Source of the DNA: Anaerobacillus sp. CMMVII
Lineage (GTDB): Bacteria; Bacillota; Bacilli; Bacillales; Anaerobacillaceae
Assembly: GCF_025377685.1 (NCBI RefSeq)
Contig: NZ_JACEHK010000017.1
Span: 372,001-436,000, forward strand
Direction of reading: 5' to 3'
Length of the DNA: 64,000 nucleotides
Positions within the stretch are counted from its first letter, which is position 1, and every line of letters begins with the position of its first letter. The notes under the pieces were generated by a model. The model was given only the letters and a program-made list of their open reading frames with translations. It did not search any database and was not told the origin of the DNA. Both the position numbers and the translations under genes were made by a program. This document shows positions 2,842-54,788 of the stretch, one piece after another.

Positions 2842-3090
2842 ATGAGAAGACATGGATTAAAAACAGTCATAAGTAATAAGGGGTTTATCTATTTTAATCA
2901 TGCAACTCTAGTCATAGAGTCTGATCAGGATTGGTATATTTCCGTTGCTGACGATCAAGACAATGAATATCAAGGACAGCTTGAGTTAGTCCTAGAAACG
3001 GATGAAGGGCATAGCTACCTCACAAAGGGAAATTATCGTGATCATCGAATTACAGCAGTAGACAGCCTCCATCCTTTAAGAGTAAGTTAA
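2842..3090 (+). CDS. Hypothetical protein, 82 aa
   Basis: Starts with ATG at 2842 after a GAGGTG ribosome site, 32 bases behind the bactofilin-like gene and probably co-transcribed with it. No signal peptide or membrane segment. The sequence is polar and beta-rich with several acidic patches. I do not recognise a family. Confidence 0.65.
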   Translation: MRRHGLKTVISNKGFIYFNHATLVIESDQDWYISVADDQDNEYQGQLELVLETDEGHSYLTKGNYRDHRITAVDSLHPLRVS

Positions 3091-9945: not shown

Positions 9946-11349
9946 ATGGATCGAACAACAAAACGAGTATTAATCGTAGCATACCTCTTTCCACCGATTG
10001 GTGGCGGGGGCGTACAAAGAGCACTAAAAATGGCAAAATACCTAGGACAGTTTGGCTGGGAACCGCACATCTTAACCGTTGCCCCGTCGCACCATGTAAC
10101 TTTAGATTTAAGTCTACTAGATCAACTTCCGGAGGATGTGAAAATCCACCGGGCGAGTGAAATAAAGATTCGTCGACCAGTAGTCGTTCAAGGTGGGGGG
10201 CGAGTTCAAAGTGCCAGTTCCGAAGGGGTGCGGTCGAAACTAAAAAAGTCGGCAAAAGCGTTTCTAAAGACAATGAAAAATGCCGTCATGATCCCAGATG
10301 ACCAGATTATGTGGTACCCCGCGGCGGTGAAAAAGGGACTTGAGGTGATCAGGGAGCATCATATTGATGTAATTTTTTCAACAGCTGGCCCTTATACAAA
10401 CCATCTCGTTGGTCGCAAATTAAAACAAAAGACAGGGAAGCCATGGATCGCTGACTTCCGCGACCCCTGGACTCAAAATATGCATCGACCACAATTCAAG
10501 TGGCGCCGCCGTATTGAGGAGCGCATGGAAAAAGGCGTCATGGAATCGTCTGATGTGTTATTGACCGTTACTAATTCGTTTGCGAAGAACTTTAATCAAA
10601 AGTATCCTAAGCTGAAACGGGTTGAAGTTATTCATAATGGCTATGATGCCGCGGATTATCAAGATATTTGCGCGGTTGAAAACCCAGGTAAGTTTACTTT
10701 TATTTATGCAGGAATCTTCTATAAGGAGCGCAATCCGCGTTTACTATTAGAGGCGATTAGAGCATTAGTTGATGAAGGAAAGATTAACAAAGACCACATT
10801 CTATTAAAGTTTGCAGGTGTCTTTGATTATCCAGGCTATACCGAGAACAACGATGCAGTGCAGCGCCTAGGGTTAGAGGAGAATGTCGCGATTATGGGCA
10901 ACCTTCCTCACAGCCAGGTGTTAGGAGAAATGAAAGGTGCGAATGTCTTACTTCTAATCAACGACGTCACACCTGATGCAGGAAATTACATCCCTGGTAA
11001 GCTCTTTGAATACATGGCCATTGGCAACCCAATTCTGGCATTGAGTCTACCAGGAGAATCAACTGAGATTATTGAAAAGTATAGGCTTGGCGAAGTCGTC
11101 CAACCCAAGAACCTCCAAGAAATCAAGGCAGGAGTCCTCAAACTCTATGAGGAGTGGAAAGAGAAGGCAAAAGAGGGGTCTGACCCCCGCCAAGGTAAAG
11201 CTTTAAAGCACTGGGGGTCAGACCCCCACCGAGGTAACGCGGTAATACAGCGGGGGTCAGACCCCTCTTCACAAACTACCGATACTAGTATCTATGAAAG
11301 AAAAAATCAAGCAGAACAATTAGCAAGGTTAATGGATGAATTGATTTGA
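9946..11349 (+). CDS. GT4-type glycosyltransferase with repeat-derived C-terminal insert
   Basis: GT-B fold retaining glycosyltransferase (glycosyltransferase family 4-like). The N-terminal VAYLFPPIGGGGVQRA loop binds acceptor/nucleotide, and the C-terminal half has the donor site (YIPGKLFEYMAIGNPILAL). ATG 9946 is preferred to GTG 9937, with GGTGTG upstream. Near the C-terminus, bases 11175-11266 are a REP-B repeat read in frame as GSDPR..GSDPH..GSDPS, adding about 30 residues between the last domain helix and the tail (ERKNQAEQLARLMDELI). The tail still looks native, so the insertion kept the frame. Confidence 0.88.
   Translation: MDRTTKRVLIVAYLFPPIGGGGVQRALKMAKYLGQFGWEPHILTVAPSHHVTLDLSLLDQLPEDVKIHRASEIKIRRPVVVQGGGRVQSASSEGVRSKLKKSAKAFLKTMKNAVMIPDDQIMWYPAAVKKGLEVIREHHIDVIFSTAGPYTNHLVGRKLKQKTGKPWIADFRDPWTQNMHRPQFKWRRRIEERMEKGVMESSDVLLTVTNSFAKNFNQKYPKLKRVEVIHNGYDAADYQDICAVENPGKFTFIYAGIFYKERNPRLLLEAIRALVDEGKINKDHILLKFAGVFDYPGYTENNDAVQRLGLEENVAIMGNLPHSQVLGEMKGANVLLLINDVTPDAGNYIPGKLFEYMAIGNPILALSLPGESTEIIEKYRLGEVVQPKNLQEIKAGVLKLYEEWKEKAKEGSDPRQGKALKHWGSDPHRGNAVIQRGSDPSSQTTDTSIYERKNQAEQLARLMDELI
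11175..11266. repeat. REP-B repeat inside GT4 gene (three units)
   Basis: Units of GGGGTCTGACCCCC and GGGGGTCAGACCCC separated by GCTTTAAAGC-type spacers. Three units lie in the reading frame without a stop. This family also occurs at 11602, 11711, 42060, 42353, 42767, 53534 and 54469. Confidence 0.92.
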
Positions 11350-11353
11350 AATA

Positions 11354-11389
11354 ACGATGGTCACGATCATATATGGTCGTGACCATCAT
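11354..11389. terminator. Hairpin after GT4 gene, possible terminator
   Basis: GATGGTCACGA pairs perfectly with TCGTGACCATC (11356-11366 with 11377-11387). Only a weak T tract follows, so termination strength is uncertain. Confidence 0.6.
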
Positions 11390-11751
11390 TTGGTTCAAGA
11401 TGATTGGATTAGTTGGAGGATAAGATTTAGGAGACTAGTCGTGCCTTCATCGGTAAAAGGGAAAGAAAGGGTAAAGATAATCAAGTCATACCATTGAAGA
11501 TGGGCCAGGTTCGGACAGGTATCCTTCACCTCAGGCTAAACTTGTCTGAAGTTGCCTCAGGTTCGGGCAGCTTTCCTTATCTAATCCTGATCCGTTTAGC
11601 TGGGGCCTGACCCCAATGAAAGTTCACTTTCACCATTAAGAATGTAAATCTATTTTGCGCTACCTGAACTTGATAAGAGAAAGTGAACTTTCGAAGTTTA
11701 ACTATTTACAGGGTAGACCCCCACTAATGTAACGCTTTAAAGCGGCGGGGG
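11390..11751. other. Intergenic palindrome-rich region
   Basis: No gene seen. It contains an imperfect duplication around CAGGTTCGG (11508 and 11552), a REP-B single unit at 11602-11614, and two inverted copies of the quasi-palindrome GAAAGTTCACTTTC (11618-11631 and 11679-11692). It ends in REP-B copy 3. Confidence 0.6.
11602..11614. repeat. REP-B single unit
   Basis: GGGGCCTGACCCC, a solitary palindromic unit. Confidence 0.7.
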
Positions 11752-40213: not shown

Positions 40214-42052
40214 TTGCATAAATGGTTTAGTTTTTTACTAGTATTCATTCTGTTATTTACTCTGCCATTTCCATATATGGCTGATTCCCATGAAGAAGCT
40301 TATATTGTCTATTTTCACGAGCAGGCTGACTTAGAAATTGTCGAAGGTTTAGATATTCTCCAAGAGTTTGAACATTTTCCAGCGGTAACAGTTAGTGCCA
40401 CAGAACAAGAATTTAAAGAGCTTCAAAATGACTCGACGGTAAAATTTATTGAGAGGGACTTAGAGGTTAAAACGCTAGAGGTAGAACGAACGTGGGCAAC
40501 GTCGAAAATTCAAGCGCCACTCGCTTGGAATTCAGGCTTAACTGGAAAAGGTGTCAAAATTGCCGTCATCGATTCTGGTATTACGCCACACTCAAACTTA
40601 CATGTTGTAGACGGTGTCTCTTTCATATCAGGAATTACTTCTTACTATGATGATAATGGACATGGGACACACGTAGCAGGCATTATAGGTTCAAAACACA
40701 CGACGCATGGAAATCCAGGTGTTGCTCCTGGTGCAAGCCTTTACGCGATAAAATCATTGGATAAGACAGGTACAGGGACAATATCATCGGTTATTGCCGG
40801 TATCGAATGGGCGATTACGAATAACATGGACATCATAAATATGAGCCTTGGCGTATCAACCGCTTCAAAAGTGTTAGAAGAGGTTGTTAACAAAGCTCAT
40901 AATGCAGGGATCTTAGTAGTTGCAGCAGCAGGAAACTCTGGTTTCTCTGCAACAGGCAATGTAATGTATCCGGCCCAATATTCATCAGTCATTGCGGTTT
41001 CATCCATTGATCGCTTCGATAACCGATCTACTTTTTCATCAACTGGAAAAGAAGTTGAGATTACCGCTCCAGGCAGCGATATTGTCAGCACAAGCATTCA
41101 CAATGGTTATCTACAAATGAGCGGTACCTCGATGGCAGCATCATTTGTGACAGGTTCGTTAGCGCTATACAAAGAGAAATTTCCACATTTATCAAATGAG
41201 GAATTAAGAAAGCTGTTGCAAAAAGATGCTCTCGACATAGGGGCAGTAGGAAGAGACTCATTGTTTGGTTTTGGGATTGTACAAGCACCAAGTAAGCAAG
41301 AACCACAGCCTGAAGTTTTTTCAAGCAGACTCTTTGTAACTGAAACGACAGATATTTTTGATACAGTAAATTCAACAACAAGAAGAAGTTCAATTAACCC
41401 ACAAAATGTAACGACATTGAGAAAGTTAGGCGACTGGTACGAAATTAATACATGGTTAGGTCCAAAGTGGATCAAGCCAACTCTGCCACTAGTAGGAGGG
41501 ATTGACCCTGTCTCAAAAACAATCCAACTTACACAAGTAACACCGATGTACACGTCACCGTTAGCGACAACGCAAAGAAGCTCACTCGGTGCACAAAAGG
41601 TTACAGCAACACACAAGTGGAATGACTGGTACCGTATCAACACCTGGTTGGGTCCAAAGTGGATCAAACCTGTTATTACAGTCGTTGATCCTTCAGAAGT
41701 AAATAGAATCTATGTAACTGAAACGACAGATATTTTTGACTCACCGACATCAACGGTAAAAAGAAGCTCAATTAGTCCGCAAAACGTAACGACATTGCGG
41801 AAAGTAGGAGATTGGTACGAGATCAATACATGGCTTGGTCCAAAGTGGATCAAACCTAATGCACCGCTAATCGGTGGAATTGACCGCGTTAATGAGGTCA
41901 TTCAATTAACAAAGGTAACGCAAATTTTTGATACGCCATTAGCCGCTACGCACCGAAGCTCATTAGGTGCCCAAACAGTAACAGCGACCCATAAATGGAA
42001 CGACTGGTACCTAGTTAATACCTGGTTAGGGCAGAAATGGCTGAAATTGTAG
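40214..42052 (+). CDS. Subtilisin-like serine protease with four C-terminal wall modules
   Basis: Secreted S8 protease. TTG 40214 follows GGAGGG. Order: signal peptide, inhibitor-I9 propeptide (AYIVYFHEQADLEIV), and catalytic domain with D120 (IAVIDSGI), H150 (NGHGTHVAG) and S306 (GTSMAASF), all present. Four modules follow with NPQNVTTLRKLGDWYEINTW-type cores, near-identical to those of the upstream SpoIID-like protein. Length is 612 aa. It probably acts at the cell wall, perhaps maturing other wall proteins. Confidence 0.93.
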   Translation: MHKWFSFLLVFILLFTLPFPYMADSHEEAYIVYFHEQADLEIVEGLDILQEFEHFPAVTVSATEQEFKELQNDSTVKFIERDLEVKTLEVERTWATSKIQAPLAWNSGLTGKGVKIAVIDSGITPHSNLHVVDGVSFISGITSYYDDNGHGTHVAGIIGSKHTTHGNPGVAPGASLYAIKSLDKTGTGTISSVIAGIEWAITNNMDIINMSLGVSTASKVLEEVVNKAHNAGILVVAAAGNSGFSATGNVMYPAQYSSVIAVSSIDRFDNRSTFSSTGKEVEITAPGSDIVSTSIHNGYLQMSGTSMAASFVTGSLALYKEKFPHLSNEELRKLLQKDALDIGAVGRDSLFGFGIVQAPSKQEPQPEVFSSRLFVTETTDIFDTVNSTTRRSSINPQNVTTLRKLGDWYEINTWLGPKWIKPTLPLVGGIDPVSKTIQLTQVTPMYTSPLATTQRSSLGAQKVTATHKWNDWYRINTWLGPKWIKPVITVVDPSEVNRIYVTETTDIFDSPTSTVKRSSISPQNVTTLRKVGDWYEINTWLGPKWIKPNAPLIGGIDRVNEVIQLTKVTQIFDTPLAATHRSSLGAQTVTATHKWNDWYLVNTWLGQKWLKL

Positions 42053-42059
42053 TGAAACT

Positions 42060-42090
42060 GGGGGTCTGACCCCCAGTACTTTAAAGTGCT
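42060..42090. repeat. REP-B unit after subtilase
   Basis: GGGGGTCTGACCCCC followed by AGTACTTTAAAGTGCT. Confidence 0.88.
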
Positions 42091-42136
42091 AAATCAATAA
42101 TGTATTCCTTCTGATTTTAGCCAATGAAATTTTGTG

Positions 42137-42168
42137 ACTGCTGAGAAGAAATTCTCAGCAGTTTTTTG
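42137..42168 (+). terminator. Rho-independent terminator
   Basis: ACTGCTGAGAA pairs with TTCTCAGCAGT, then six T. Confidence 0.93.
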
Positions 42169-42273
42169 GTTTTCCAGGTTAATTATTTCAAGAATCTAAT
42201 GAAAACATCGGTTATAGCGGGTGATACTGATGAAAGTTTTAAGATTTTTACTAGATTTTGTTATGTAACGAGG

Positions 42274-42336
42274 GTTATTCGGCAAACTTTTTGAGTTATT
42301 CGGCTAACTTCCGCATTTATTCGGTAAACTCTCCAG
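42274..42336. repeat. 21-bp tandem repeats, three units
   Basis: Units begin GTTATTCGGC or TTTATTCGGT. The surrounding ~140 bases (42245-42384), including the REP-B unit, recur at 42614-42797 with five units. Confidence 0.85.
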
Positions 42337-42352
42337 ATAGCTCCCTTAGTTT

Positions 42353-42384
42353 AGTGCTTTAAAGCGGTGGGGGTCAGACCCCCA
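42353..42384. repeat. REP-B unit
   Basis: GCTTTAAAGC followed by GGTGGGGGTCAGACCCCC. Confidence 0.85.
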
Positions 42385-42417
42385 AAAGCTCCAAAAGCTG
42401 TTTCAGTTATGGTAACT

Positions 42418-42533
42418 AATTTCGAATTGACATTGAGCCTCTACGGGCATGAGAAATAGCCAGGAAGCCAGGGAGAGTCCCCTGGCTTGCCTAACAGGCT
42501 ATCATGCCCGCCTCTCAATGTAAATTCGAAATT
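42418..42533. other. 116-nt near-perfect hairpin, role unknown
   Basis: AATTTCGAATTGACATTGAG pairs with CTCAATGTAAATTCGAAATT; inside, GGGCATGA pairs with TCATGCCC, TAGCC with GGCTA, and AAGCCAGGG with CCCTGGCTT around a tiny loop. Small asymmetric bulges separate the stems. It lies between two copies of a 140-base duplication, and the following T tract is absent, so it is not an ordinary terminator. Confidence 0.85.
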
Positions 42534-42643
42534 GGTGCAGACATTTCAAGCTAAAAGTACTCTTACAGTGTTTGCTCAGATCAGAAATGATGAAATTGTT
42601 AAGAGTATTATGGTTTTTTACTACATTTTGTTATCTAACCTGG

Positions 42644-42748
42644 GTTATTCGGCAAACTTTTTGAGTTATTCGAACAACTTTTGCATTTATTCGAACAACT
42701 TTTTGAGTTATTCGGCTAACTTCCGCATTTATTCGGTAAACTCTCCAG
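42644..42748. repeat. 21-bp tandem repeats, five units
   Basis: Five 21-base units with cores TTATTCGGCAAAC, TTATTCGAACAAC (twice), TTATTCGGCTAAC and TTATTCGGTAAAC. It is an expanded copy of 42274-42336. Confidence 0.88.
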
Positions 42749-42766
42749 ATAGCTCCCTTCAGTTTA

Positions 42767-42797
42767 GTACTTTAAAGCGGTGGGGGTCAGACCCCCA
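42767..42797. repeat. REP-B unit upstream of tagO
   Basis: TACTTTAAAGCGG then GGGGGTCAGACCCCC. Confidence 0.85.
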
Positions 42798-42847
42798 ATG
42801 ACTAAAATCTTTGAAATAGGAGAACGTAATCCCAAAGGGGTGTTTAC

Positions 42848-43900
42848 ATGATTTTATTGACCTTTTTGCTTAGTTTTTTTACGGTTATTCTCTATACGCC
42901 ACTTGTGAAGACGATAGCGGAGAAAATAGGGGCGACAGACAAACCGGATCACCGTAAAGTACATGAGACATTAATGCCGCGTTTGGGCGGTTTAGCGATA
43001 TATGCAGGGTTCCTAGTAGGCTTTTTATTTATTGAGCCATACAGTCCATTTGCCAGGTCGATTATGGTTGGTGGTTTGATTATGATTGTGGTTGGAGTGC
43101 TTGATGATTTATATGAGTTGTCGGCAAGGTGGAAGCTCAGTGCGCAAATCCTTGCAGCTACGATTGTTATTCTCGGTGGGGTGCATGTTGATTTTATTAA
43201 TTTACCGTTCGATGGCAGGTTAGAGCTAGGCTGGTTTGGGATTCCGCTTACGATGCTCTGGATCGTGGGCGTGACAAATGCAATCAACTTGATCGATGGA
43301 TTGGATGGATTAGCTGCAGGGGTATCGGCAATCGTTCTCTTGACGTTATCAGGGATCGCTTTTATGATGGGGAATTTCTTCGTTGTCGCAGTGGGGATGA
43401 TCCTGTTAGGAAGCACGCTTGGCTTTCTAGTGTATAATTTTCATCCTGCAAAAATTTTTATGGGTGACACTGGAGCACTTTTCCTTGGGTTTATGATTGC
43501 CATTATTTCGCTCTTAGGGTTTAAAAATGTGACGTTATTTTCATTACTCATTCCAGTCATCATCCTTGGCGTGCCGATTTCTGATACGTTTTATGCGATT
43601 ATCCGGCGGATCGTCAATAACAATCCGTTATCAGAACCAGATAAGTCGCATTTACATCATTGTCTTTTACGACTAGGTTTTTCTCACCGCCAAACGGTGC
43701 TTATTATTTACGCAATGAGTGCAGTCTTTTGTTTAGGAGCGGTCGTTTTGACGCAATCGACGCTCTGGGGAACTTTAATTATTGTGACGATCTTCTTAGT
43801 CGGAGTGCAACTTGTCGTTGAAACGATTGGACTTGTCAATTCCTCCTATAAACCTGTTCTAAGATTTTTGCAACGGATTGGCGCGGTAAAAAAGGTATAG
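42848..43900 (+). CDS. tagO: Undecaprenyl-phosphate GlcNAc-1-phosphate transferase (TagO/WecA)
   Basis: Integral membrane enzyme that makes GlcNAc-PP-undecaprenol, the first lipid intermediate of wall teichoic acid. AGGGGTG precedes ATG 42848. About ten helices; motifs GVLDDLYELSARWKL (Asp-Asp, Mg/UDP site), NAINLIDGLDGLAAG, FMGDTGALFLGF and the HLHHCLLRLGFSHRQ cytoplasmic loop are all intact. Product is the substrate of TagA (14032). The length of 350 is typical. Confidence 0.94.
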   Translation: MILLTFLLSFFTVILYTPLVKTIAEKIGATDKPDHRKVHETLMPRLGGLAIYAGFLVGFLFIEPYSPFARSIMVGGLIMIVVGVLDDLYELSARWKLSAQILAATIVILGGVHVDFINLPFDGRLELGWFGIPLTMLWIVGVTNAINLIDGLDGLAAGVSAIVLLTLSGIAFMMGNFFVVAVGMILLGSTLGFLVYNFHPAKIFMGDTGALFLGFMIAIISLLGFKNVTLFSLLIPVIILGVPISDTFYAIIRRIVNNNPLSEPDKSHLHHCLLRLGFSHRQTVLIIYAMSAVFCLGAVVLTQSTLWGTLIIVTIFLVGVQLVVETIGLVNSSYKPVLRFLQRIGAVKKV

Positions 43901-53533: not shown

Positions 53534-53594
53534 CATTGGGGTCTGACCCCCGCCGCTTTAAAGCTTTCCCGCGGCGGGGGTCAGACCCCAATGA
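53534..53594. repeat. REP-B paired repeat with mirrored flanks
   Basis: GGGGTCTGACCCCCGCCGCTTTAAAG and its near inverted partner. The palindrome extends into TTCATT on the left and AATGAA on the right. Confidence 0.92.
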
Positions 53595-53597
53595 ACG

Positions 53598-54350
53598 TTA
53601 AAACCCTGTGCTTTCAACTTCAACTGGTACGGCATTCATGTACTCTTCTAAGGATACTCCCAATGTCGCTATTTCTTTTGCCATCTCTATTCCGACATAA
53701 CGTAAATGCCAAGGCTCATAGATATAGCCGGTGATCTGCTCTTTTCCCTCTAAGTAACGAATAATAAAACCATAATTAGCTGCGTTCTCCTTAAGCCATT
53801 TTGCTTCTTCTGTATATGCGAAGCAAGGAGCTACCACACAAGTCCTATCACCTCCGGTAACATCAATGGCAAGTCCTGTTTGATGCTCACTATGACCTGG
53901 AACGGCACTGTAGGTACGAGCCTTTTCCTCTCCGTGCCTCTCTACATAATGTTCAAACAATGATTTTTGAGTATCGTATGAACGATATCCTGATACTCCA
54001 AGTAGGGATAGTCCGTCCCTCTTTGCTGCCGAAAACAACTTTTCCAACGAATCGGCAGCTTCTTTACGCATCTTATGCCATTCCACATTTTCTCCCGAGT
54101 AAAACGGTACATTTGGGTAAACCAGGTCTTCTGGAGTATGTTCATCTGGAAGCTTGTAATGCTTATTTACAAGGACCGTCACACTTTCTGGATTAGTATC
54201 GACCTGTATTAGTCTCTCCGCTTGAACCAAGGTTGTTTCATTTATTATATGGTCACCTTCATTGCTTTGAAACGAATTAGGTTGAATTTCATACCCGATT
54301 AAGCTCAGAAGTAATATCCCAATCAATACACTAGCAATGCTTACTTTCAT
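53598..54350 (-). CDS. VanY-family D-Ala-D-Ala carboxypeptidase
   Basis: Exported M15B-type metallopeptidase that trims the terminal D-Ala of peptidoglycan stems. ATG 54350 with AAGGATT upstream on the minus strand. N-terminal signal/anchor helix, then SGYRSYDTQKSLFEHYV, the zinc motif SEHQTGLAIDV and EPWHLRYVG, all present. Length 250 aa is usual. Convergent with the transglycosylase gene; a REP-B lies between. Confidence 0.93.
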   Translation of the reverse strand: MKVSIASVLIGILLLSLIGYEIQPNSFQSNEGDHIINETTLVQAERLIQVDTNPESVTVLVNKHYKLPDEHTPEDLVYPNVPFYSGENVEWHKMRKEAADSLEKLFSAAKRDGLSLLGVSGYRSYDTQKSLFEHYVERHGEEKARTYSAVPGHSEHQTGLAIDVTGGDRTCVVAPCFAYTEEAKWLKENAANYGFIIRYLEGKEQITGYIYEPWHLRYVGIEMAKEIATLGVSLEEYMNAVPVEVESTGF

Positions 54351-54788
54351 AACAATCCTTCTTCCTACCAATTTAAAGGTGATATGTATAAGTTTGTTAT
54401 CTAACCTTATTTCTAGTTTGGGAACTTACATAGAATTCTATTCTCGGTAAATATGAAAAGAAACATACATAGGGGTCTGACCCCCACCGCTTTAAAGCTT
54501 TCCCGCAGCGGGGGTCAGACCCCCTATGTGAGACCCCTATGTATTCTATGTATTTTTATCTAAATATCCTTAAATATTCCATACATTTATTGTCTGTTGT
54601 ATGTTAAAATTATTGTCGAGATTTGATGTAAATAACATAATTATGTTTAAGGTTGGATGTTAAATACTTAGAAGTTGTATTTGCAAGCGCTTTGTAGTGT
54701 TAATCTTCAGCATGAAATTCATAAATATACGTTTTGTTGTCAGGATACCTTTTCTAGGAAAGGTCCAAAAATTAAAGGAGAGGTCTAT
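54351..54788. other. Intergenic region with REP-B and extended -10
   Basis: No gene seen in 438 bases. It holds REP-B (54469-54530), a duplicated CCCCTATGT segment after it and an extended -10-like TGTTAAAAT at 54603-54610 that may drive the acyltransferase gene. Confidence 0.5.
54469..54530. repeat. REP-B paired repeat with mirrored flanks
   Basis: Same internal sequence as 53534-53594; here the mirrored flank is ACATA/TATGT. Confidence 0.92.

Follow-up and report, generated by a model that had tools for sequence, protein, structure and literature searches.

The window, that is, the whole 64,000-nt stretch of Anaerobacillus sp. CMMVII DNA that was analysed, contains a subtilase gene (40214-42052) and a tagO-like gene (42848-43900), both named from the original prediction and their translations and not from a family search. 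The 795-nt gap between them holds a 116-nt imperfect multi-stem hairpin at 42418-42533, which extends to 42415-42536 with three further outer pairs. The features of this region are as follows.

42415-42536, minus strand (the fold under apparent selection): complete hairpin, from folding, with the strand taken from relatives
42426-42524, no strand assigned: core common to the relatives (models R1 and R2), from covariance models
42418-42437, no strand assigned: left outer arm, from the repeat search and the exact scan
42514-42533, no strand assigned: right outer arm, from the repeat search and comparison with relatives
42245-42385, plus strand: duplication copy 1 with ATTCGG repeats and the GGGGGTCAGACCCCC palindrome, context outside the hairpin element
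42615-42798, plus strand: duplication copy 2, split by an internal repeat, context
42059-42797, no strand assigned: stretch bounded by inverted REP-type arms (42059-42093 and 42763-42797)

The predicted multi-stem hairpin with matching arms was borne out by folding of both strands, as RNA and as DNA. For 42418-42533, the RNA fold reached -62.3 kcal/mol (z -10.2) on the plus strand and -66.3 kcal/mol (z -9.5) on the minus strand, and the DNA fold gave z values of -10.8 and -10.5 for the two strands, with 0 of 200 shuffles as good in each case. The plus-strand fold consists of an outer stem of 11 + 8 bp with one mismatch, followed by stems of 9, 5, 3 and 9 bp, separated by small asymmetric bulges, and a 6-nt loop. 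This is close to the stem list given originally, whose "20-bp outer stem" corresponds to 19 pairs plus a mismatch. The outer arms (42415-42437 and 42514-42536) are 23 nt long and 91% complementary, and the core, in the orientation modelled, reads TTGACAT(T/G)GAGCCTC...CTC(A/C)ATGTAAA. As had been noted, no terminator-type T tail was found at the hairpin, which lacks the G+C-rich stem plus T run of an intrinsic terminator; the single terminator-like site in 42000-42900 lies at 42136-42163, 3' of the subtilase gene.

The hairpin indeed lies between two copies of a duplication of approximately 140 bases (42245-42385 and 42615-42798). The GGGGGTCAGACCCCC palindrome is a high-copy repeat: when the own genome was searched with a query containing duplication copy 1, 72 matches were obtained, the majority at this palindrome, which can be hit in both orientations. 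Palindromes of the form GGGTC(A/T)GACCC are clustered, with 11 in the window (42062, 42371, 42784, 11176-11749 and 53539-54512), and are REP-like and high-copy genome-wide. Seven Y1-type transposase genes are present in the genome, one with the palindrome on both flanks (L270) and another with it on one flank (L267). The 3' half of the subtilase gene (41327-42049) is an array of related repeats of a 181-nt and a 48-nt family, which are SH3-like as judged from the translation. Within 330 nt, the best inverted pair around the hairpin was the REP palindrome, in place of terminal inverted repeats, and no IS256-type ends were found in the window at up to three mismatches. The window copy is solitary, has no transposon ends and lies in a REP-rich insertion between the subtilase and tagO-like genes.

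The closest tagO gene in a relative (G006; 76% identical) also follows an SH3-repeat gene of this kind, at a distance of 125 nt compared to 795 nt here, and its 125-nt spacer contains neither the hairpin arms nor the REP palindromes. The stretch between the inverted REP-type arms (42059-42797) accounts for most of this difference in spacer length, and the simplest reading is that the hairpin arrived with the REP-rich insertion into the subtilase-tagO gap. Relatives of the tagO-like protein were found at E ≤ 1e-20 in all seven genus genomes searched, the own genome included. The covariance model detected the hairpin in none of seven tagO or tagO-like loci (L100-L103 and L106-L108), of which six are in relatives and L106 is a paralogue in the own genome. 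Because G006 and these seven loci lack the hairpin, it does not belong to a conserved tagO leader. The suggestion in the original prediction of a structured RNA in the tagO leader is thus unsupported, since G006 has the same gene order without the hairpin.

A blastn search of the own genome returned no second copy, only the hairpin itself, its own reverse strand and 14- to 20-nt matches at E 1.9 or worse, and a search of six genus mates returned no copy. When 84,980 species genomes were scanned for exact matches to the first 18 nt of the left outer arm (AATTTCGAATTGACATTG), 17 loci were obtained. Two of these, in Flavobacterium and an archaeon, were set aside as chance, the agreement being limited to the 18-mer. 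The other 15 carried the same hairpin or a truncated copy and came from Cytobacillus, Neobacillus, Robertmurraya and Bacillus timonensis, so that AATTTCGAATTGACATTG recurs exactly in the same hairpin of IS256-type elements from other Bacillaceae. A transposase frame preceded the hairpin in all five scan loci with reading frames listed, and seven scan-type loci passed comparison with IS256 representatives, which match PF00872.

A covariance model (R1) built from 13 sequences, the window hairpin and 12 relatives, had matches at E ≤ 0.01 in 138 of the 397 genomes searched from the order, with a best value of 3e-32; its per-genome match counts were left unused, as the palindrome also matches on the other strand and scoring was limited to 10 candidates per genome. 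The search for other copies in the genome, which had been proposed as a check, was negative by blastn but yielded one divergent relative by covariance model (G000:C9:42490-42587, E 7.7e-8, and 2.1e-12 with the refined model). At E ≤ 0.001, the refined model (R2), built from 83 sequences, had matches in 26 of the 398 phylum genomes searched, 24 of which do not belong to the order. R2 also confirmed plasmid copies in Aliarcobacter (E 1.2e-19) and Aeromonas (E 5.2e-26), and the element has therefore reached other phyla. Two blastn queries gave no match in phage records, and three IMG/VR contigs matched a narrow exact pattern and were all confirmed by the model.

Several further observations concern individual copies. 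On an Aliarcobacter butzleri plasmid, one copy (L235:2512-2614) is flanked by aph(3')-IIIa and erm(B), and blastn at ≥99% identity found this version in that single plasmid record. An Alkalihalophilus pseudofirmus OF4 plasmid carries two same-direction hairpins 322 nt apart (L237:2502-2608 and 2931-3028). In copies from outside the order (L208, L209, L217, L219, L220, L223, L224, L225 and L227), shared pieces of the GTGAACGGGC, GCGGCATAAACGC and CGCTTCGCTTCGGTGAAC types extend, by eye, the hairpin base, which suggests subtypes with a larger predicted structure.

Rfam 15 gave no match on the hairpin in window positions 42000-43000 at E ≤ 5, and at E ≤ 0.1 it gave none for the hairpins at 16 further loci. 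No description of the family was found in the open full-text literature searched, with ISfinder and subscription papers outside the scope of this search, and the portions consulted of PMC2267715, PMC5703833, PMC7780238, PMC8632094, PMC8040213 and PMC8266576 contain no account of it. The window hairpin is a lone copy of a widespread and apparently undescribed family of folded elements, with the OTH-22-1 motif compared by description only; the family itself is well supported.

To describe the genomic context, 88 matches were reduced to 84 distinct copies by removing overlapping reverse matches; these are mostly the best-scoring copies, usually one or two per genome, and not a random sample. Thirty-two of the 84 copies adjoin IS256, IS3 or IS30 transposase genes, as assigned by phmmer to representatives. 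Pfam supports the IS256 and IS3 representatives, and IS30 was identified by an HTH_38 domain and a weak rve match (L138). In 9 IS256, 15 IS3 and 5 IS30 copies, the hairpin lies 7 to 99 nt behind the transposase stop codon, pointing in the direction of the gene in the IS256 and IS30 copies and in the opposite direction in the 15 IS3 copies. In three further IS3 copies, it lies 341 to 352 nt before the orfB frame, i.e., ahead of orfA. Another 26 copies lie between inverted repeats that were matched by at most 2 of 200 shuffles, and most of these are MITE-like, with unrelated ends. The 110-nt limit used places two insertion sequence copies outside the transposase classes, namely an IS3-borne copy counted among the 26 (L073) and an IS256 copy (L043). 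The remainder comprises the window copy, one copy with too short a flank, and 24 copies without a clear inverted repeat in the automatic test; several of these 24 share ends with the clear types by eye, and L043 is among them. The ends around the hairpin fall into several unrelated types, in a comparison from which the 33 transposase-assigned loci were excluded beforehand. Hence the proposal that the window hairpin is a MITE holds for its relatives, which do occur in MITEs and insertion sequences, but not for the window copy, which shows no transposon ends.

IS66 was considered as a carrier and dropped, as the copy concerned (L063) is of the MITE type and lies 239 nt from the IS66 gene. Three hairpin-bearing IS256 copies (L034, L038 and L057) lie within tandem-repeat arrays with units of roughly 50 to 60 nt, as if such arrays were their preferred targets. 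Near one MITE-type copy, a c-di-GMP-I riboswitch was detected (L079:1789-1874, E 1.1e-12).

Outside the order, the hairpin was found 35 nt behind an IS21 istB gene (L220), 88 nt behind an ISL3 transposase gene (L212), 90 nt from an IS200 transposase gene (L226) and 326 nt before an IS110 transposase gene (L208). In three IS3 copies (L214, L217 and L229), hairpin and gene point the same way, unlike in the 15 IS3 copies described above, and in a fourth (L216) they point in opposite directions. Some copies have no visible transposon, for example one between genes read as hisA and hisF (L225). The hairpin of L222 lies 136 nt from a gene for a rolling-circle-type replication initiator (REP_ORF2-G2P, PF23343). 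Plasmid records revealed a second context, in which short gene-free stretches with the ends TGTTTTCTGCAAAG... and ...TTTTGCAATAAACA contain the core. One such TGTTTTCTGCAAAG/TTTTGCAATAAACA element interrupts, by eye, a Geobacillus frame that resembles an ISL3-type transposase and may be flanked by an 8-bp target duplication (GCAAAAAG, also by eye).

We compared transposons with and without the hairpin. Among 30 transposase relatives of one IS3 type, the hairpin was present in 3 and absent from 27. In most of the hairpin-free relatives, the stop codon almost directly abuts the right end; the hairpin-bearing ones have an insert of ~220 nt at this place, with a flank that by eye resembles that of the free MITE L079. 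The hairpin-bearing elements gave one match each in three genomes, and the hairpin-free ones at least eight in two genomes. A MITE type (MITE-A) shares its left end with a complete hairpin-free IS21-type element (L262), typed as IS21 from a sister record that names its second gene istB, and contains the hairpin where the IS21-type transposition genes would be. For IS256, 15 of 24 loci were scanned with the model and the 3' flanks of all 24 were inspected. Seven of nine distinct hairpin-free elements, not counting L113, whose contig ends there, carry other large, unrelated palindromes between stop codon and right end by eye. The gap between stop codon and right end in IS256 is a slot for folded DNA that is variously filled. 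The palindromes in these hairpin-free relatives often have a GGGGTACCCC-like centre (L115, L118-L122 and copies).

Compensatory changes in relatives, which had been proposed as a check, were found as strong covariation. In 51 aligned copies (49 distinct), 93.8% of the cells were paired and 16 of 31 pairs showed double changes. None of 500 shuffles reached any of the five measures, although relatedness of the sequences inflates such shuffle statistics, and shifting the pairing partners by 1 to 3 columns reduced the pairing to 29-40%. The outermost feet, which differ in sequence, paired at 4.54 of 6 positions in 59 distinct copies, compared to 3.32 of 6 when the right feet were re-dealt (sd 0.12, maximum 3.64 of 500). 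With relatives, covariation and a divergent second copy all present, the original prediction stands unrefuted as far as sequence allows.

The types of mismatch differed between the two strands. Over all pairs of 68 representatives, plus-strand mismatches comprised 104 A.C and 39 G.U, and the bias was concentrated in the two base helices (62 A.C versus 4 G.U) and absent from the terminal helices (42 versus 35). The A.C:G.U ratios in the base helices were 5:1 for IS256, 4:0 for IS30, 14:1 for IS3 and 51:3 for the remaining copies; over all pairs, IS30 was even at 5:5. A plus-strand A.C is a G.U wobble on the minus strand, and selection therefore seems to maintain the minus-strand fold, regardless of the direction of the transposase gene. 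The restriction of the bias to the base helices speaks against a mutational bias of one strand, and the mismatch test reads folding of DNA and of RNA alike. Among 63 copies with both flanking genes called, both genes were on the hairpin plus strand in 30 cases and both on the minus strand in 12, a count from which the 33 transposase-assigned loci were excluded beforehand and which includes several copies of the same MITE in one genome. Simple consensus scores revealed no promoter enrichment toward the hairpin on either side of 82 copies. A tally of hairpin direction against replication (45:24 in 13 genomes, excluding the 33 transposase-assigned and 4 plasmid loci) was dropped, as it depends on the contigs beginning at the replication origin, an assumption that the local GC skew contradicts in G351. 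Directions based on GC skew gave 38 versus 20 of 68 loci, a weak bias.

The hairpin is far more widespread than the window suggests, and it is a passenger of transposons. From the computed family, distribution, covariation, mismatch bias and promoter null, we infer a mode of action in which this passenger would act as a folded single DNA strand, most likely as a start or loading signal for replication, with the window copy being a solitary one. We hold this reading tentatively, with a probability of about 0.42. The folded elements, of ~95 to 140 nt, travel as passengers inside transposable elements. They either occupy the non-coding gap next to the transposase gene in IS256, IS3 and IS30, with single copies beside IS21 and ISL3 genes, or make up the filling of MITEs. 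Copying or movement of the transposon would expose the hairpin as a folded single strand, which may then be read by a host or transposon factor; the likeliest job of the hairpin would be to start or load the copying of a strand of the transposition intermediate. IS21 and ISL3 are also placed among the copy-out/paste-in families. IS3, IS256 and IS30 are families of this kind, in which the figure-eight intermediate is turned into a double-stranded circle by host replication (PMC7780238). A replication-starting hairpin on the circularised strand would serve all the carrier families and their MITEs.

The absence of promoter enrichment, together with neighbours lying mostly on the plus strand, makes a folded single DNA strand the likeliest form. 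In addition, the same fold strand seems to be kept with opposite transposase directions. This makes it doubtful that the hairpin acts within the transposase message, unless its use differs between the families. On the other hand, the 24 of 84 copies without a clear inverted repeat count against this reading, and the IS200 and IS110 neighbours and the three IS3 copies ahead of orfA indicate that the place of the hairpin is not strict. Furthermore, in the IS3 type compared, elements with the hairpin are no more numerous than those without it, which speaks against a replication signal, and no candidate was found for a protein recognising it.

It is conceivable, though unlikely, that the active form is a minus-strand transcript, that is, a structured RNA carried by transposons that would control, in trans, either transposition or some process of the host. 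The strong covariation, the tolerance of G.U on the minus strand and the rod-like fold of usual RNA size are consistent with such an RNA. However, neither side of the 82 copies shows promoter-like enrichment, read-through from the flanking genes (30 plus versus 12 minus) would mostly give the other strand, the minus strand in IS256 and IS30 is antisense to the transposase message, and the hairpins tested have no Rfam match.

We regard as rather improbable a second explanation, in which the hairpin is a small mobile element in its own right and of a new class, its minus-strand fold being moved in trans by a putative enzyme. Insertion sequence and MITE families would then capture and multiply landed copies and spread them between genera and occasionally phyla, and the window copy would be free-standing. 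The occurrence of the same hairpin between unrelated transposon ends, the copies without a visible transposon (in the window and in the hisA/hisF gap of L225), the shared sequence that by eye stops near the hairpin foot across carriers, and the apparent selection of one strand's fold all point in this direction. However, the single clean empty site reveals a ~220-nt insert with a MITE-like flank instead of a bare hairpin, the foot sequence covaries instead of being constant, and no candidate enzyme was seen beside the hairpin.

A third explanation, which appears very improbable, holds that any stable hairpin beside the transposase gene suffices, as a transcription block or a protector of the message end. 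The other large palindromes at the same spot in seven of nine hairpin-free IS256 relatives would fit this, as opposed to the conservation of the sequence over genera, the preference for one strand in the base helices, the persistence of the hairpin in gene-free MITEs and the lack of a T tail. Finally, a cis-acting leader RNA of tagO can be dismissed: the hairpin ends 315 nt upstream of tagO and both neighbouring genes are on the plus strand, but it is missing before tagO in relatives, one of them with the same neighbours, most examined hairpin relatives adjoin transposase genes or sit between inverted repeats, and no Rfam match was obtained, so that, from these comparisons, the window copy probably has no role in tagO expression.

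The passenger hairpin places one folded module in at least three, and probably five, unrelated transposon families as well as in MITEs with unrelated ends. Such a shared module suggests that transposition includes a common step, or that transposons have a common parasite, which has so far escaped notice. As a replication signal, it would make the conversion of copy-out/paste-in intermediates to double-stranded circles testable through a defined cis signal. The claim of novelty is based on its absence from Rfam 15 at the hairpins tested and on the lack of a description in the literature searched, and the covariance model can annotate many places that have so far been without annotation.

Among known systems, attC sites have one active folded strand and consist of a base stem, an unpaired stretch, a second stem and a variable tip. 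The hairpin shares this layout and a similar length, and selection on the fold of one strand is indicated for it in the base helices, indirectly, by the mismatch types. The attC-like folded-strand site named in the original prediction was therefore apt as a comparison of shape, but the R-box pair (RYYYAAC ... GTTRRRY) was absent: both boxes occurred in 0 of 82 copies on either strand, and one box in 2 of 82. Furthermore, the hairpin differs from attC in its conserved internal sequence and in its association with transposons, with no gene-cassette array in the loci examined. RYYYAAC is a mark of attC, and the OTH-22-1 motif, a likely variant of attC-type structured DNA with 1887 representatives in several phyla, carries it at its 5' end, unlike the hairpin copies, as compared by description only (PMC8632094).

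REP/BIME elements moved by TnpA-REP are repeated palindromes recognised as a single strand, and a REP is defined as a 20- to 50-nt palindrome preceded by GTAG (PMC8266576). In contrast, the hairpins of this family are ~95 to 140 nt long and lie inside insertion sequences and MITEs; the window hairpin, at 116 nt, has no GTAG within 20 nt outside either foot. The REP-like item in the window is the separate GGGGGTCAGACCCCC repeat, not the hairpin. MITEs, with bcr1 as an example, are similar in that many hairpins fill MITE-like elements with inverted ends and, by eye, target duplications, but the hairpin is distinct from the ends and common to elements with unrelated ends. bcr1 is named, and stem-loop families of B. 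halodurans are listed, in PMC2267715.

The single-strand origins (ssoA, U, T, W and L) and ssiA are large secondary structures read as one DNA strand (PMC5703833), and the hairpin would resemble them in both respects. On pAMbeta1, which carries the primosome assembly site ssiA, the best R2 match on the whole plasmid had an E value of 0.18. The blastn plasmid matches that covered the core were confined to records of at least 65 kb, with no known plasmid single-strand origin among them; 12 of 22 plasmid records matched just the transposon ends, six of these also with ~11 nt of the hairpin foot. By the tests run on its sequence, the hairpin is placed outside attC, REP, ssiA, the curated Rfam families and intrinsic terminators. 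Its mode of working would, by analogy, be most like that of attC or of a single-strand origin, with one folded strand as the active form.
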